Shown here: positions 49,623 through 56,967 of the stretch, piece after piece
Numbering within the stretch: position 1 is the stretch's first letter
Layout: the number at the start of each line of letters is the position of its first letter
Assembly (NCBI RefSeq): GCF_019402645.1
Contig: NZ_VKKS01000001.1
Span: forward strand, 3,205,787-3,269,786
Length of the DNA: 64,000 nt
Direction: 5' to 3'
Source of the DNA: Morganella morganii
GTDB taxonomy: Bacteria; Pseudomonadota; Gammaproteobacteria; Enterobacterales; Enterobacteriaceae
Notes under the pieces: generated by a model
The model's input: the letters and a program-made list of their open reading frames with translations, nothing else
The model's database searches: none
Told to the model about the DNA's origin: nothing
Program-made: the position numbers and the translations under genes

Positions 49623-50804
49623 TTACAGACGTTCAATCACCATCGCAATCCCCTGCCCGCCGCCGATACACAGCGTCGCCAGTCCGGTGGTTTTGTTCTG
49701 TGCCTGTAACGCATGCAGCAGCGTCACCAAAATACGGGCGCCGCTCGCACCAATCGGGTGACCAAGCGCAATCGCCCCGCCGTTAACGTTTACTTTTTCA
49801 GGATCAAAACCCAGGTCACGGCCGACTGCGAGGAACTGGGAGGCAAATGCCTCGTTGGCTTCGATAAGATCGATATCCTTCAGTGACAGCCCCGTTTTTT
49901 CCAGCACTTTCCGCGTAGCCGGAACCGGCCCCAGCCCCATCATTGAAGGTGAAACACCGCCGGAGGCATAACCCCGGATGCGGGCAAGCGGCATCAATCC
50001 CAGCGATTTTGCACGGGTTTCTGTCATCAGCATCAGAGCTGCGGCGCCGTCATTGATACCGGACGCATTACCGGCAGTGACCGTACCGGCTTTATCAAAG
50101 GCCGGACGCAGTTTTGCCAGCCCTTCTGCGGTTGAACCGGCTTTCGGGAATTCATCGGTATCCACCACAATCTCACCTTTACGGCTTTTCACCGCCACCG
50201 GCACGATTTCAGCCTTAAATGCCCCGCGCTCAATGGCACTGACGGCTTTCTGCTGTGATGACAGTGCCAGTGCATCCTGCTCTTCGCGGGTCAGGTTATA
50301 GGCTCCGGCAATGTTCTCCGCCGTGATCCCCATGTGATAGTTATTTTCGGCACACAGCAGCCCGTCGCGCAGAATCACATCATGCACCACGCCGTCACCC
50401 AGCCGGTAACCCCGGCGGGCTCTGCTGTCCAGCAGATACGGCGCCAGGCTCATATTTTCTGTGCCGCCCGCAATAATAATGTCTGCGTCACCGCTGCTGA
50501 TCGCCTGTGCACCCAGCGCAACACTCTTCAGGCCTGAACCACACACTTTATTGACGGTGAAGGCACAGGCGCTTTCAGGTATACCGCTGCGCAGCAGGAT
50601 CTGACGCGCGGGGTTCTGCCCCAGCCCTGCCTGCAACACGTTCCCCATAATGACTTCATCCACCAGACCCGGCTCCAGCTGCGTTTTTTTCAGTAACGCG
50701 CTGACCACGGCTGAACCGAGATCCACTGCACTGACATCCGCCAGAGCACCGTTAAAATTACCAATCGCTGTGCGCAGAGCACTGACAATAACGATATTTT
50801 CCAT
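49623..50804 (-). CDS. atoB: Acetyl-CoA acetyltransferase
   Basis: A 393-residue thiolase that splits acetoacetyl-CoA into two acetyl-CoA. The acylated Cys is in [16 protein letters not shown] (about residue 88); His and the second Cys are in [16 protein letters not shown] and [13 protein letters not shown]. Last gene of atoDAEB. Confidence 0.95.
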
Positions 50805-50831: not shown

Positions 50832-52154
50832 TCAGAAGAAAACGAGGCCGAGAATGAAAATCGGTGCCGAGAGCAGCAGGGCAGTGATGCAGTACCCCAT
50901 AATGTCCCTGACCCCCAGCCCGGCAATCGCCAGTGCCGGCAGAGCCCAGAACGGCTGCGCCATGTTCATCCATTGCTCACCGTAGGCAATCGCCATCACA
51001 GATTTACCGAGATCAGCCCCCAGTGCCTGGGCCGCCGGGATCACAAACGGCCCCTGAATCACCCAGTGACCGCCGCCTGACGGCACGGCAAAGTTGATCA
51101 GCGCAGAGCTGAAGAAGGTCATGAGCGGGAAGGTTTCTTTGTTGGCGACGTTGATGAAAAATTCAGTGATAAGCCCGCCCAGTCCGGAGCCTTCCATCAT
51201 GAGCTGGATACCGGCATAGAACGGGAACTGCACGAGGATCCCGGCAGTACTGCGGGCGGCGGCACTGACGGCTCGCATATACGCCATCGGGGTTTTATGC
51301 AGCAGCAGGCCGGTCAGCAGGAAAATCATATTCACGGTGTTAATGGTGATATTGAAACCGTTTTTGATGAAATACATGCCGAGGAACGTAAAGCCCAGAA
51401 TCCCGATAATCCACGCAATAAGACGGCTCTCTTCCATCCGGAGGGAAACCGGCGCATCTTCCGGTAATTTTTTCTGAAAATCCGGCTCTTCTTCGAGCAG
51501 TGCCGGGTCGATCATCATAATGTCGTCTTTGCGCGGCATCATCATGCGGGTGACAAACGGCATCACCAGAATCAGTGTCAGGGTGATAAACAGGTTATAA
51601 CCGGTAAACATGGTCTGGCTGACAGGAATAAGCCCGGCGATATGCTCGACAGGATTACCCGGTGTGGCGGCCAGCAGCGGCATAGAGCCTGAAAAACCGC
51701 CGCCCCAGGTCATAAACCCGATATAAGCACAGGCGATCAGCAGCGGATAGTCAGAGCCCGGCACGCGGCGGGCTACTTCGCGGGCAAACATTGCCCCGAC
51801 CACCAGCCCGAAGCCCCAGTTAATAACACAGGCGACCGAGCCGAAAAAGGTCACCAGCATGACCCCCTGAACAGGGGTCTTTGCCAGTGAGGCGGTCAGC
51901 CTCAGAATACGCTTAACCGGCGGTGAGCTGGCCAGCGCGTGACCGGTCACGATGATCAGCGCCATCTGCATCCCGAACGCCAGCAGGTTCCAGAATCCGT
52001 TCCCCCATAAATTCACCAGATCCATCGGTGTGCTTGGTGTGAGTGCCAGTGCGATGACAAACGTCAGCATGGTCAGCAGCATTGCAAAGATCAACGGATC
52101 CGGCAGATAGCGGCTCACCACACGGGTCATGACTCGTGAGATGCGTCCTATCAT
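50832..52154 (-). CDS. atoE: Short-chain fatty acid transporter AtoE
   Basis: A 440-residue membrane protein with about twelve helices of the AtoE family (MIGRISRVMTRVVSRYLPDPLIFAMLLT; FAVPSGGGHWVIQGPFVIPAA). It imports short-chain fatty acids such as acetoacetate or butyrate. Its start overlaps the atoA stop by four bases. Confidence 0.93.
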   Translation of the reverse strand: MIGRISRVMTRVVSRYLPDPLIFAMLLTMLTFVIALALTPSTPMDLVNLWGNGFWNLLAFGMQMALIIVTGHALASSPPVKRILRLTASLAKTPVQGVMLVTFFGSVACVINWGFGLVVGAMFAREVARRVPGSDYPLLIACAYIGFMTWGGGFSGSMPLLAATPGNPVEHIAGLIPVSQTMFTGYNLFITLTLILVMPFVTRMMMPRKDDIMMIDPALLEEEPDFQKKLPEDAPVSLRMEESRLIAWIIGILGFTFLGMYFIKNGFNITINTVNMIFLLTGLLLHKTPMAYMRAVSAAARSTAGILVQFPFYAGIQLMMEGSGLGGLITEFFINVANKETFPLMTFFSSALINFAVPSGGGHWVIQGPFVIPAAQALGADLGKSVMAIAYGEQWMNMAQPFWALPALAIAGLGVRDIMGYCITALLLSAPIFILGLVFF

Positions 52155-52816
52155 ACGGCTTCCCCCGCAGTCACTAACGGCATTTCACAGATATCCGGTG
52201 AAACAATAAAATGCGCGGCGGTTTTTTCGCGGATAGTGTCGATATCCGTGCCCGGCGCGTATTCACACAGCACCATCTGATCATTTTCAAAACGGAATAA
52301 CGCCAGTTCGGTTACCAGCACATCCACCGCTTTCACTGCGGTCAGCGGCATAGTGCACGCCGGCAGGATTTTGGCGGAACCGTCTTTTGCACAGTGTTCC
52401 ATTGCAATGATTACTTTGCGTGCACCGGTCACGAGATCCATCGCACCGCCCATACCCGGCACCATTTTGCCCGGCACCACCCAGTTAGCGAGGTTGGCCT
52501 GCTCATCCACCTGTAAGCCGCCAAGTACGCTGGCATCCACATGACCGCCGCGGATCAGGGCGAAGGAGAAAGCACTGTCAAACATCGATGCCCCCGGCAG
52601 AATACCGCACGGCTGACCGCCGGCATTGACCAGATTCTTATCCGGCGTGGTCACCGGCCCGAGGCCGAGAAAGCCGTTTTCTGACTGTAATGTGATATGC
52701 ACACCTTCCGGCAGATAGTTCGCCACCTGTGTCGGCAGCCCGATCCCGAGGTTCACCACATCACCGTCATTCAGTTCCAGTGCCACACGGCGGGCGATTA
52801 ATTCTTTTGCATTCAT
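52151..52816 (-). CDS. atoA: Acetate CoA-transferase beta subunit
   Basis: A 221-residue CoA-transferase subunit. The catalytic Glu is in SENGFLGLGP (about residue 46). With AtoD it moves CoA from acetyl-CoA to acetoacetate or other short-chain acids. ATG 52816 with GGAAAA upstream gives MNAKELIARRVA; a longer frame into atoD is rejected. Confidence 0.94.
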   Translation of the reverse strand: MNAKELIARRVALELNDGDVVNLGIGLPTQVANYLPEGVHITLQSENGFLGLGPVTTPDKNLVNAGGQPCGILPGASMFDSAFSFALIRGGHVDASVLGGLQVDEQANLANWVVPGKMVPGMGGAMDLVTGARKVIIAMEHCAKDGSAKILPACTMPLTAVKAVDVLVTELALFRFENDQMVLCEYAPGTDIDTIREKTAAHFIVSPDICEMPLVTAGEAV

Positions 52817-52826
52817 GATGTTTTCC

Positions 52827-53477
52827 TTATTCTGCAATCAGCCAGTCAATTATTGCCCCTGGTGTGGCAACACAATCCGGGTCGATATCACCCACAGCGA
52901 CCATCTCATCCGGCTCTGCAATGGTAATATCCGCCGCCAGCGCCATCAGCGGATTAAAGTTACGGGCACTGAGGTCATAAGTGAGGTTACCGAGCGGATC
53001 GGCTTTCTGCGCCTGAATCAGCGCCAGGTCGGCGCGCAGGGGAAGTTCGATGAGGTAATCGCGGCCATCGAGGGTTATTTTCTGTTTGCCTTCTTCCACG
53101 ACCGTACCGACACCAGTCGGTGTGAGGAACCCGCCCAGTCCGGCACCGCCGCAGCGGATTTGCTCTGCCAGTGTGCCCTGCGGGATCAGCTGAACCTCCA
53201 TTTCACCGGCGATCATGCGACGCCCGGTTTCCGGATTTGTCCCGATATGGGAAGCAATCACTTTTTTCACCCGGCCGTTCACAATCAGCGGGCCCAGGCC
53301 GGTATCCACAAATGCAGTATCATTGGCGATAATGGTTAATTCTTTTACGCCGGATTCTAATAATTCAGTCATTAAACGCGGCGGCGTACCGACACCCATA
53401 AATCCGCCAACCATAATTGTCATGCCGTCACGAAAAAATTCACCGGCTTTTTTCACCGTTATTTGTTTATTCTTCAT
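52827..53477 (-). CDS. atoD: Acetate CoA-transferase alpha subunit
   Basis: A 216-residue subunit with the CoA-transferase family signature [19 protein letters not shown] near the N-terminus and [16 protein letters not shown]. First gene of atoDAEB, 42 bases from a sigma-54 promoter. Confidence 0.94.
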
Positions 53478-53518
53478 AGCACTTCCCTTTTATAAAAAAA
53501 TATAGACGAAAGGGTAAT

Positions 53519-53534
53519 AGCAAGGGCTATGCCA
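53519..53534 (-). promoter_or_regulatory. Sigma-54 promoter of atoDAEB
   Basis: On the minus strand TGGCATAGCCCTTGCT fits the -24/-12 consensus, with GG and GC 10 bases apart. It fits the known AtoC and sigma-54 control of ato in E. coli. Confidence 0.85.
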
Positions 53535-53652
53535 ATAATAAATCTCATTTTATGTTAAAATAAAAACACCACAACAAACTGATATTAATCATTTTTATAA
53601 TTTACAAAATAAAACAATTAACATATAAAAAATAAAATTATAATTAATGACC

Positions 53653-53687
53653 GTGAAATAAAATGCACAGTGTGAAAAATTATTCAC
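53653..53687. promoter_or_regulatory. Candidate AtoC activator sites
   Basis: GTGAAATAAAATGCAC (53653-53668) and the palindrome GTGAAAAATTATTCAC (53672-53687) are similar, 19 bases apart and about 120-155 bases upstream of the -24 element. AtoC in E. coli binds inverted repeats more than 100 bases upstream. The assignment is inferred. Confidence 0.5.
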
Positions 53688-53697
53688 AGCAAAAAAA

Positions 53698-53728
53698 CAC
53701 GGTGAAATTATTTTCACCGTGTTTTTTT
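53698..53728. terminator. Terminator of atoSC
   Basis: A perfect palindrome (arms CACGGTGAAA... / ...TTTCACCGTG) flanked by seven A and seven T residues, 44 bases after the atoC stop. Its core GTGAAATTATTTTCAC resembles the two sites beside it. Confidence 0.8.
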
Positions 53729-53771
53729 AAATCATTTTTAATTATCTATAGAAAATTATTACTAATACCGA

Positions 53772-55157
53772 TTATTCAATATCATATTCCTGCAATTTAT
53801 ACATTAATGCCCGGCGGCTGATCCCCAGCGCGGATGCAGTATGGGTTTTGTTGTTCTGAAACTCCGCCAGTGCAGAAATAATCAGTTCTTTTTCATAGGC
53901 CTTAATATTATCTTTCAGGTTCAGCCCGGGTTCCTGCGCAACCGGAATCAGCGCTACCGGCTGGCTGCGGACCTGTGCCAGTAACTGCTCCGGCAGATCT
54001 TCCGGGAAAATGACATAACCGGTGCTCATAATCACCGCCCGTTCAATCACGTTGGAAATTTCCCGCACATTTCCCGGCCACTGGTAGTTCATCAGCAATG
54101 CCAGGGTTTCCGGTGCCAGCTCCACAATATCGCGGTTATTTTCCTGACTGAATTTCTGCAGAAAATGGGAAGCCAGCAGGCCCACATCCTCCGGCCGCTC
54201 ACGAAGCGGCGGTAAATTCAGGTGAATAACATTCAGGCGGTAAAACAGATCCTGACGGAAGTGGCCTTCCCGCACCCGTTCATTCATATCGCGGTTAGTC
54301 GCAGCAATAATACGGATATCCACACGGATGGTTTTACTGCCGCCGACCCGTTCAAACTCTTTTTCCTGCACTACCCGCAGCAGTTTAACCTGCAAATCCG
54401 CCGGCATCTCGCCGACCTCATCAAGCAGCAATGTGCCGCCGCTGGCGCGTTCAAACAATCCCTGACGCTGCACCTGCGCCCCGGTGAACGCCCCTTTTTC
54501 ATGGCCGAACAGTTCACTTTCCAGCAGCGAGCCGGGCAGCGCCCCGCAGTTCACTTTAATAAAGGGGCCGTTAGCTCTCCCGCTGTTGTAATGAATGGCC
54601 CGCGCCACCACTTCCTTTCCGGTACCGCTTTCCCCTGTGATCAGCACCGTTGCCTGGCTGCGCGAGACTTTGGCGATATCACGGCAGATTTCCATCATTT
54701 TCGGGTTACGGGTCAGCACACGTCCCCATTGGTAGCTGTCGCTCAGTTCCCGGTGCAACAGATTGATTTCCTGTTTCATCTCCTGCAACTGTAATGCGCG
54801 GGAGATAAGCAGCTTCAGTTCCGTCAGGTCGAAGGGTTTTATCACATAATCAAATGCCCCCAGACGCAGCGCATCTACCGCCGTTTCCACAGCAGCATAG
54901 GCGGTCATCAGGATCACCGGCACTTCCGGGTTCAGTTCGCGCATCCGTTTGAGAGCCTCAATGCCGTCCAGTTTCGGCATGCGGATATCCATCAGCACCA
55001 CATCCGGTTTATCCTGCACAAAACTTATCAGCGCGGCTTCGCCATCCTCCGCTACCCGGGTTTCATGGCCATCAATGGAAAATGCGGTCTGTAACATCCG
55101 GCTGAGATTCTTTTCATCATCCGCGATAAGAAGCCGGTACGATTTATGTGTAATCAT
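53772..55157 (-). CDS. atoC: Response regulator AtoC (sigma-54 activator)
   Basis: The 461-residue regulator has a receiver domain (Asp57 in [10 protein letters not shown]), an AAA+ domain with Walker A GESGTGKE (176-183) and GAFTGA (223-228), and a Fis-type helix-turn-helix at the end ([19 protein letters not shown]). It activates atoDAEB. It overlaps atoS by 14 bases. Confidence 0.95.
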
Positions 55158-56967
55158 TTTTTTTACTCTGCATTATCGGCAACGTTATGGTGAACGTCGT
55201 TCCGTGATTTTCCTGACTTTCAAGGAAAATATCACCGCCGTGGCCGGCGATGATTCGCTGGCTGATAGCCAGTCCCAGCCCGGTTCCCGAGGCTTTGGTG
55301 GTAAAAAACGGATCAAAAATTTTCTTTTGCAGCGCCGCCGGAATCCCGGTGCCGTCATCACGGATCACCACCATGACCCGCTGCTCCTCCATATAGCAGG
55401 TGGAGATAAAGAGATTGCCTCTGGCCGGAATCGACTGCACGGCGTTTATCATAATATTGAGCAGCACCTGACGCAGCAGCTCGCTGTTGGCCTCAATCAG
55501 CGGCAGTGTTTCATCCGGCACCCAGGTGAACGTGACCCGCGCTTCCACGCCTTTGGTTTTAACCAGCACCAGCGCTTCTTCAATCAGCCGGTTGACGCTG
55601 ATCGGGCGGAATGTACCGGTCTGCGGCCGGGAAAAATCAAGCAGTTGACGGATGATCCGGTCAATGGAATCCACTTCCTTGAGAATAATACTGATGTATT
55701 CCAGTTTATCCGGGTGATTTTCAAGTTCTTTGAGGATCTGCACGAAACCGCTGATCGCCGTCAGCGGGTTGCGCACCTCATGCGCCACCCCGGCCATCAG
55801 CTCGCCGAGTGTGGCGAGTTTTTCCGCCTGCTGCATGCGGCGCTGAACCTCTTTCTGTGCAGTGAGATCTTTAAATATCACCAGTGCACCGATAAGCTCC
55901 CCGCCTGCATTACGGATGCGGCTGGTGCTGACATTTATCTGAATAGTGCGGTCACGGGCAGGATACTCAATTTCCAGGCTGACGTGCTCGATACCGCGCG
56001 TCAGGGTATCCAGAACCGGGCTGGAAAAACTGCGTCCGGCAAAGACATCGCCGTAATATTTGCCGTGCAAATCCCGTTCCAGATAGCCGGTTATCTCTTC
56101 CGCCGCCGGGTTAATCATGGTGACGCAGCCATTGATATCCACTGCTATCACGCCGTCCGCCGCACTTTCAATAATCAGCTCGTTGAGGGTTTTCATCTCC
56201 CGCAGTGTCTGTGCCAGAGCGTTTACGCTGTCGCTGATTTCCCCCATTTCTCCTTTCATCATCGGCAGATGGATATTGAGGTCATGAGAGAGGTCACTCA
56301 GGCCGCTTTTAATCGCGCCGATATCACGGCTGAAATGACGGGAAAAAACAATAATAATCAGCAGACTGAACAGGATACCCAGCGCGATGACTACAATGAT
56401 TCTGATGTCCATCGCCAGTGCCTGACGGTCAATATCATCCGTCAGTTCATTCGCCCAGATATAACCGGCGACCTCGCCACCGCGTCTGACAGGGATCATC
56501 GCATTCATAATATTGCCGCGTACCTGTGTTCCCCAGCCGACTTCAGCTTCTCCCGTTGCCATCACATGACGGCCGGGGTGATCCTCACTGATTCGTGTGC
56601 CGGTTTTGTTGCCGTAACGGGCACGCGGGGAATAGGTCACAATACCGTCAAGGTCACGGTGGTAATATCCGGCACCGACACCCGGGAATGTGGAGGTGAT
56701 AATTTCAGCCGCCGGATACAGCTTTTCACTGATCAGCGCCAGACGCTGCTCCCGCGGCAGGGATGCCGCAAGCTCATATTCATTATTCAGCGCCTGCTCC
56801 AGCAAACCGGCGACAGAATAGAGTTTGTTCCGTTTTTCCTGCAACAAGGCGGAACGTCCCTCGGTTTCCACAAAATAACCGATGATAAGTGTCGGGACTG
56901 TGACCAGCAGAATGGCCATCAGTATGAGTTTGTCACGCAGACCGAAGGGATAATATTTATGCAACAC
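55144..56967 (-). CDS. atoS: Sensor histidine kinase AtoS
   Basis: A 607-residue membrane kinase with helices at about 13-33 and 188-208 around a periplasmic sensor domain, then HAMP, PAS (LIIESAADGVIAVDINGCVTMIN), the His box AGVAHEVRNPLTAISG and the ATPase domain ([19 protein letters not shown]). With AtoC it responds to acetoacetate and related compounds. Confidence 0.94.
   Translation of the reverse strand: MLHKYYPFGLRDKLILMAILLVTVPTLIIGYFVETEGRSALLQEKRNKLYSVAGLLEQALNNEYELAASLPREQRLALISEKLYPAAEIITSTFPGVGAGYYHRDLDGIVTYSPRARYGNKTGTRISEDHPGRHVMATGEAEVGWGTQVRGNIMNAMIPVRRGGEVAGYIWANELTDDIDRQALAMDIRIIVVIALGILFSLLIIIVFSRHFSRDIGAIKSGLSDLSHDLNIHLPMMKGEMGEISDSVNALAQTLREMKTLNELIIESAADGVIAVDINGCVTMINPAAEEITGYLERDLHGKYYGDVFAGRSFSSPVLDTLTRGIEHVSLEIEYPARDRTIQINVSTSRIRNAGGELIGALVIFKDLTAQKEVQRRMQQAEKLATLGELMAGVAHEVRNPLTAISGFVQILKELENHPDKLEYISIILKEVDSIDRIIRQLLDFSRPQTGTFRPISVNRLIEEALVLVKTKGVEARVTFTWVPDETLPLIEANSELLRQVLLNIMINAVQSIPARGNLFISTCYMEEQRVMVVIRDDGTGIPAALQKKIFDPFFTTKASGTGLGLAISQRIIAGHGGDIFLESQENHGTTFTITLPIMQSKKNDYT

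Follow-up and report, generated by a model that had tools for sequence, protein, structure and literature searches.

Two of the three related palindromes in the atoC-atoD gap of Morganella morganii, P1 and P2, very probably make up the AtoC enhancer of the atoDAEB operon, and the third, P3, forms the tip of the intrinsic terminator of atoSC, with a likeness to AtoC dyads that is most likely coincidental or a remnant. The three had originally been predicted to be equivalent, which was not borne out. In the window (the whole stretch of 64,000 nucleotides that we analysed) the order on the minus strand is atoS, atoC, a 294-nt gap (53478-53771), atoD, atoA, atoE and atoB; in the direction of the operon, the gap contains a hairpin with T7, followed by P2, P1, an IHF consensus and a sigma-54 box. 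The features are listed below; the names of atoA, atoE and atoB were assigned from the gene order in E. coli (L118) and from broader family matches.

55144..56967, minus strand: atoS, sensor kinase (NCBIfam NF008468.0 equivalog, 772 bits, cut-off 646)
53772..55157, minus strand: atoC, response regulator (NCBIfam NF008469.0 equivalog, 744.3 bits, cut-off 714)
53691..53728, minus strand: intrinsic terminator of atoSC, with a 17-bp stem, a 4-nt loop and T7 on both strands (hairpin at the same position in 5/5 Morganella gaps)
53702..53717, no strand assigned: P3, GTGAAATTATTTTCAC, exact GTGAA-N6-TTCAC at the terminator tip (profile score 11.1), possibly an auxiliary dyad for AtoC, in M. morganii only
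53650..53690, minus strand: predicted AtoC enhancer (UAS), a 41-bp site holding P2 and P1 as 16-bp dyads 19 bp apart, by homology to the E. coli 40-bp AtoC palindrome
53672..53687, no strand assigned: P2, GTGAAAAATTATTCAC, promoter-distal dyad, exact GTGAA-N6-TTCAC (profile score 10.6)
53653..53668, no strand assigned: P1, GTGAAATAAAATGCAC, promoter-proximal dyad GTGAA-N6-TGCAC, one mismatch to GTGAA-N6-TTCAC (profile score 10.1)
53572..53584, minus strand: putative IHF site, consensus WATCARNNNNTTR (TATCAGTTTGTTG), 13/13 match, from sequence only
53518..53535, minus strand: sigma-54 -24/-12 box of atoDAEB, TTGGCATAGCCCTTGCTA (full score in 43/44 gaps, lower in L157)
52827..53477, minus strand: atoD, first gene of the controlled operon (NCBIfam NF007394.0 equivalog, 400.8 bits, cut-off 315)
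52151-52837, minus strand: atoA
50832-52154, minus strand: atoE
49623-50804, minus strand: atoB

All three palindromes were located where the original prediction had placed them, P2 and P3 as exact copies and P1 with its single mismatch. Two exact copies of GTGAA-N6-TTCAC were obtained in 0/20,000 dinucleotide shuffles of the 294-nt gap and at least one copy in 2/20,000; for the gap without the terminator and everything before it, one exact copy was obtained in 0/20,000 shuffles. The exact pattern occurs at 11 places in the 3.79-Mb genome, compared with 3 for the reversed control pattern, and P2 and P3, which lie 30 bp apart, account for two of them. Eight of the other nine copies are inside open frames of 118-205 codons (616-nt stretches were read), and the ninth (L180, own genome C1:2792304-2792319) is the tip of a terminator-like hairpin. 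The double dyad of P1 and P2, searched with a looser pattern, has one zero-mismatch place in the genome and one other place with 2 mismatches, compared with 0 for the control. We also scored the gap with an AtoC dyad profile built from non-Morganella sites only. P1, P2 and P3 all exceeded 8.9, the 99th percentile of the top scores from 1000 shuffled gaps, and no other place in the gap scored above -3.3. The scores of P1 and P2 are, at the same time, far under those of the E. coli-type profile dyads (median 21.0, minimum 14.6), and their predicted affinity for AtoC is therefore uncertain.

By alignment to the E. coli 40-bp palindrome, which they match at the 19-bp spacing, P1 and P2 are one unit and not separate palindromes. 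The E. coli AtoC site upstream of atoDAEB is described as a 40-bp inverted palindrome in the accessible text of PMC3118216, which cites the original work. In the E. coli locus (L118) the gap is 195 nt long and the 41-mer begins 11 nt behind the atoC stop, that is 184 nt before atoD, in agreement with the -184 to -165 half-site given in the same text. The Morganella site resembles that of E. coli in its locus, its ungapped 41-bp frame with two dyads 19 bp apart, its side of the sigma-54 promoter, and its regulator family with an unchanged recognition helix. It differs in that the half-sites in the window are mostly GAA/TTC instead of GCA/TGC, that the outer arms are too little complementary for a strong hairpin (of the long palindrome, 12/20 pairs are present in the window and 18/20 in E. 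coli, although the two 16-bp dyads stand at the right spacing), that the centre of the site is 136 nt from the conserved -24 box, compared with 103 nt in E. coli, and that atoC and the site have a separate terminator between them.

To place the site among relatives, we used 54 loci collected in several searches, of which 44 had atoD directly downstream and 10 did not; two of these ten (L183 and L184) were followed to atoD. An AtoC match at the threshold used was present in 48 of 392 family genomes. One search returned 80 loci, from which only L009, L010, L011 and L075 were used, the rest being more distant proteins or genomes; further genus searches gave duplicates plus 9 new loci of one genus, and a second family draw gave one locus. 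With a 41-bp frame seeded by the site of E. coli and that of the window, a homologous AtoC site was found in 43 of the 44 atoC-atoD gaps. It fitted the 41-mer without gaps in 36/44 (scores 38.6-59.4; 34/42 once two duplicates were removed), and seven sites (L119, L120, L123, L126, L128, L129 and L133) scored 18.3-29.4, their centre being one base longer by reading. In L157 the 41-mer profile detected no site, though the locus contains an exact GTGCA-N6-TGCAC dyad. The best-kept half-site letters across relatives were G.A and T.C, with C or A (G or T) in the middle, and GTGAA is therefore a normal variant of GTGCA. This gives a cross-genus AtoC consensus of GTG(C/A)A-N6-T(G/T)CAC, with two dyads per site, and locates the probable enhancer in Morganella; the accessible text of PMC3118216 calls a strict consensus of the E. 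coli AtoC target sites elusive.

The AtoC recognition helix was identical in 44/44 rows, including the window orthologue (above the cut-off of NF008469.0), and the residue preceding it differed in L144 only. Identical columns made up 36/41 of the site in three genomes of the M. morganii group and 32/41 in five Morganella, compared with 39/65 and 21/65, respectively, in the next stretch downstream. In L183 and L184, where another gene stands between atoC and atoD, the AtoC site and the sigma-54 box stay with atoD. The intervening gene has about 335 codons (L183 644-1669, L184 644-1651, in reverse-complement coordinates and as limits of the open frame). The presence and position of the site, its homology to the verified E. 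coli site, its conservation and the unchanged recognition helix, all of which we observed directly, bear out the prediction of an AtoC-type enhancer upstream of the sigma-54 promoter.

P2 can also be read as TGTGA-N8-TCACA, which is superficially CRP-like. The half-sites of CRP are spaced by 6 bp, and the CRP reading of P2 was rejected for its spacing of 8 bp. More generally, we regard it as highly improbable that P1 and P2 belong to a regulator other than AtoC, for example CRP or an NtrC/TyrR-like protein, as the homologous site tracks the atoC-atoD locus (43/44 gaps) and goes with the atoD promoter in both examined genomes that have an intervening gene, and as binding of E. coli AtoC to the homologous site is reported in the accessible text of PMC3118216.

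The promoter box TTGGCATAGCCCTTGCTA has the form TGGCAY-N5-TTGC, its GG and GC standing at the -24/-12 spacing of sigma-54 promoters. Between it and the enhancer, 5/5 Morganella gaps have a perfect WATCARNNNNTTR, 50-51 nt upstream of the -24 box; shuffling each gap 2000 times produced a perfect match 69-93 times. In the 41 gaps that we compared (the 44 minus L157 and minus L091 and L092, duplicates of L009 and L010), the best IHF match reached 12 or 13 of 13 in 36, as against 26.5% of shuffles, and its distance to the -24 box was 38-41 nt in 24 gaps and 50-53 nt in 10, related genomes not being independent. Strand agreement was not counted, because ties in the scan favoured the plus strand. 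By sequence, an IHF site probably lies between the enhancer and the promoter, and IHF would probably bend the loop. At sigma-54 promoters, NtrC-type enhancers act through looping that is assisted by IHF. The ato region has the same order of enhancer, IHF consensus and -24/-12 box, and differs from this general scheme in that IHF action at ato is deduced from sequence. A shallow literature search returned no report of IHF action at ato; one paper in its results, PMC3162934, names AtoC as well as IHF, and the accessible main text of PMC7618054 does not contain the term IHF.

By analogy with E. coli and with sigma-54 systems in general, AtoC binding, looping, IHF action and termination in Morganella may proceed as follows. 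AtoS would phosphorylate AtoC on the acetoacetate signal, and AtoC dimers would occupy the two GTG(C/A)A-N6-T(G/T)CAC dyads 19 bp apart and then oligomerise. Through a DNA loop, which IHF at 53572-53584 would probably bend, the oligomer would contact the sigma-54 polymerase at 53518-53535, and the P3 terminator would end atoSC just ahead of the enhancer.

The claim that the last palindrome is the core of the atoSC terminator was confirmed at the level of sequence. P3 lies at the centre of the inverted repeat 53691-53728, whose 17-nt arms are 100% complementary and which is terminator-like in the hairpin list, with the stable hairpin and U-tract after the gene that define an intrinsic terminator. 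It resembles other Rho-independent terminators in its 17-bp stem, 4-nt loop, T7 at the stem foot and position directly after atoC, and differs from the usual ones in that its tip resembles the neighbouring AtoC dyads. An Rfam search of 53300-54000 gave 12 matches up to E = 1, all under the gathering scores, which we took as chance.

The further suggestion, that the terminator palindrome binds AtoC, was not supported by the comparison with other Morganella. The profile score of P3, 11.1 in the window, falls to 5.2 in the two sister genomes L089 and L090, and in M. psychrotolerans (L009 and L010) the best profile match between atoC and the site scores -4.4 and -5.5. There the hairpin tip differs and is without GTGAA...TTCAC, although the outer stem (GCACGG/CCGTGC or close to it) and P1 and P2 are kept; the automatic terminator scan chose other hairpins in these two gaps, and the hairpin at the P3 position was seen in the folds. 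In five Morganella, 8/16 columns of P3 are identical, compared with 13/16 for P2 and 14/16 for P1. P3 was therefore rejected as a conserved AtoC site. Loss of the palindromes among relatives had been named beforehand as the outcome that would speak against the prediction; the enhancer pair was kept in the Morganella gaps, and P3 was lost beyond the M. morganii group.

P3 is most likely not a required third site, its likeness to an AtoC dyad being coincidental or a remnant. Coincidence is not a comfortable explanation, since P3 equals P1 and P2 in score, and a score of at least 10 is rare among random symmetric 16-mers (272-409 of 200,000, or 0.14-0.20%). Alternatively, P3 may be a true third AtoC dyad of M. 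morganii inside the atoSC terminator, the DNA binding AtoC and the transcript terminating; such a dyad could have been favoured by the weakness of P1 and P2. We consider this quite unlikely. In its favour, P3 is level with P1 and P2 on a profile free of Morganella sequence and is well separated from the next place in the gap, of the 13 terminator-like hairpins called on both strands of the window only P3 itself, counted once per strand, scores at least 5, and 15/16 of its columns are identical in the three genomes of the M. morganii group, as for P1 and P2. The hairpin constraint by itself can, however, keep P3 within this group, and P3 weakens in L089 and L090 and disappears in L009 and L010, where a terminator hairpin and the site for AtoC persist. 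The likeness is also a post-hoc observation, the 30 bp between P3 and P2 differ from the 19 bp between P1 and P2, and no third dyad was noted when the other atoC-atoD gaps were read by eye. Coincidence is favoured by a second terminator-like hairpin of the same genome that has a GTGAA-N6-TTCAC tip (L180), although it scores only 5.8 as an AtoC dyad.

The idea that one DNA segment both ends atoSC and binds AtoC fits the window less well than other enterobacteria, where the AtoC site is a long hairpin directly behind atoC. In 27 of the 41 gaps the site starts 5-21 nt after the atoC stop, so that there is no room for another terminator before it. These near sites form a long hairpin, with z < -3 in 36/36 distinct near loci (mean -6.84), compared with -0.4 to -2.7 in the five Morganella. 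E. coli (L118 5243-5437) and 35 other E. coli-type loci have this arrangement, with the enhancer directly behind the atoC stop and arms that covary. The inner core is nearly fixed, and the outer arms differ between lineages and remain complementary. Since the recognition helix is constant, we rejected a changed specificity of AtoC as an explanation for why the arms differ.

The complementarity of the arms was measured in several ways. In a fixed register, which misses some arm pairs of sites with a one-base-longer centre (L133, 5/13, and six far sites), 285/338 arm cells were paired, compared with 208.9 (sd 8.9) when the right arms were shuffled (0/10,000), and the seven arm types alone gave 74/91 compared with 49.9 (sd 5.4; 5/20,000). 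For the gene tree we took 60 loci with the gap, 52 of them distinct, and used the 39 with a TTGC...GCAA core (the 13 without it were L001, L009, L010, L089, L090, L119, L120, L123, L126, L128, L129, L147 and L157). Arm cells were Watson-Crick in 415/468 cells in these 39 loci, as against 104-123 in registers slid by 1-3, and one parsimony reconstruction on the AtoC gene tree gave 25 double replacements of Watson-Crick pairs, as against 4, 1 and 2 in the slid registers. An independent pair count on 25 distinct near sites, with L133 left out, found 91.4% paired (35-50% when slid) and a covariation of 0.529 compared with 0.219 after shuffling (0/500). Two of its five measures were less striking, namely pairs changed on both sides (10 compared with 7.7; 27/500 shuffles) and further pair types (96/500).

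Pairing also depended on the position of the site. We took the best of nine registers per site for the 41 sites plus L183 and L184, with the same result as in the fixed register. The 27 near sites had 8-12 of 12 arm pairs and the 16 farther sites 5-9, although the near sites L095 (8), L132 and L152 (9) overlap the far range. The near sites together had 292/324 pairs, compared with 216.7 (sd 8.5) when the right flanks were dealt out among them (0/2000), whereas the 16 farther sites showed no excess pairing (100/192 compared with 106.5, sd 5.0; 1830/2000). The correlation of arm pairing with distance from atoC was rho -0.65, with relatedness ignored and few independent shifts. L148, L153 and L156, the only clade in the near group whose site has moved away, had 6, 8 and 9 of 12 arm pairs; GC-rich, hairpin-folding sequence lies between atoC and the AtoC site in these three loci.

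One explanation of the complementary arms is selection on the 3' hairpin of the atoSC mRNA, for example for protection of the end, possibly after Rho-dependent termination. Under this explanation enhancer and mRNA end would share one segment in the relatives, and Morganella would split the two jobs between P1 and P2 on one side and the P3 terminator on the other. We hold it tentatively, as a possibility on the doubtful side. The Watson-Crick cells and double replacements, the covariation, the strong hairpins of near sites beside the weak ones of Morganella, the near-far difference and its correlation with distance, and the unchanged recognition helix all argue for it, as do the position behind atoC and the weaker pairing wherever the site is elsewhere (Morganella; L148, L153 and L156; L183 and L184). 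Against it, 0/36 tails behind near sites had at least 5 T in 8, and a classical U-tract terminator at the E. coli-type sites was rejected on this count. G.U and A.C intermediates were found in 6 and 4 cells, respectively, of 22 distinct arm pairs, with no clear preference. The downstream tract is C-rich and G-poor, but about as strongly so in the non-Morganella far set: C was at least twice G in 24/27 near and 7/9 non-Morganella far sites, and with frequencies of C 0.278 and G 0.085 in the near and C 0.273 and G 0.118 in the non-Morganella far sites, a Rho-type signature specific to near sites was rejected. The overlap of L095, L132 and L152 with the far range also weighs against it, as do the dependence of the distance correlation on a few shifts, the near and far classes following phylogeny, and another terminator-like hairpin behind the site in L137. 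This hairpin, which has a T-rich tail, immediately follows the AtoC site and spans about 49-90 nt past the atoC stop.

A further point against selection on the mRNA hairpin comes from the site core, which occurs in two forms, TTGCACAGTGCGCAA in 14/39 and TTGCGCACTGTGCAA in 9/39 loci, that are reverse complements of each other. This suggests a spacer inversion, which template switching makes. The arms may therefore be complementary through template switching during replication, which would homogenise quasi-palindromes without any RNA function. Such switching is described as fixing stems and inverting spacers in the accessible texts of PMC8794818 and PMC8604942, the latter reporting that spacer inversion and arm homogenisation are made together. 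Given the two inverted core forms and a mechanism that inverts spacers, template switching is a serious rival, and we give it not quite even credence. It would be expected at any near-palindrome, yet at the 16 farther sites the arms show no more pairing than dealt-out flanks give.

Taken with the enhancer and terminator of the window, the mRNA-hairpin explanation would mean that the E. coli-type AtoC enhancer is also the 3'-end hairpin of the AtoC-encoding mRNA and that Morganella represents a split state, with a terminator tip that echoes the AtoC dyad; as a whole we judge this rather unlikely. If it were true, a protein would read one 40-bp segment as DNA, through its fixed core, and the machinery of decay or termination would read it as RNA, through arms that change yet almost always pair. 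None of the titles and abstract openings that we checked for it describes the AtoC site as a hairpin or terminator in mRNA, and no word beginning with "terminat" occurs in the accessible text of PMC3118216. The window site itself is the orthologue of a known enhancer, and the open question concerns its relatives: why do the outer arms change between genera and yet stay complementary behind the atoC stop? This question is testable, and either answer, an enhancer that doubles as an mRNA end or template switching that shapes regulatory palindromes, would alter how covariation in operators is read. The two core forms, finally, also split close relatives (L134 and L151).
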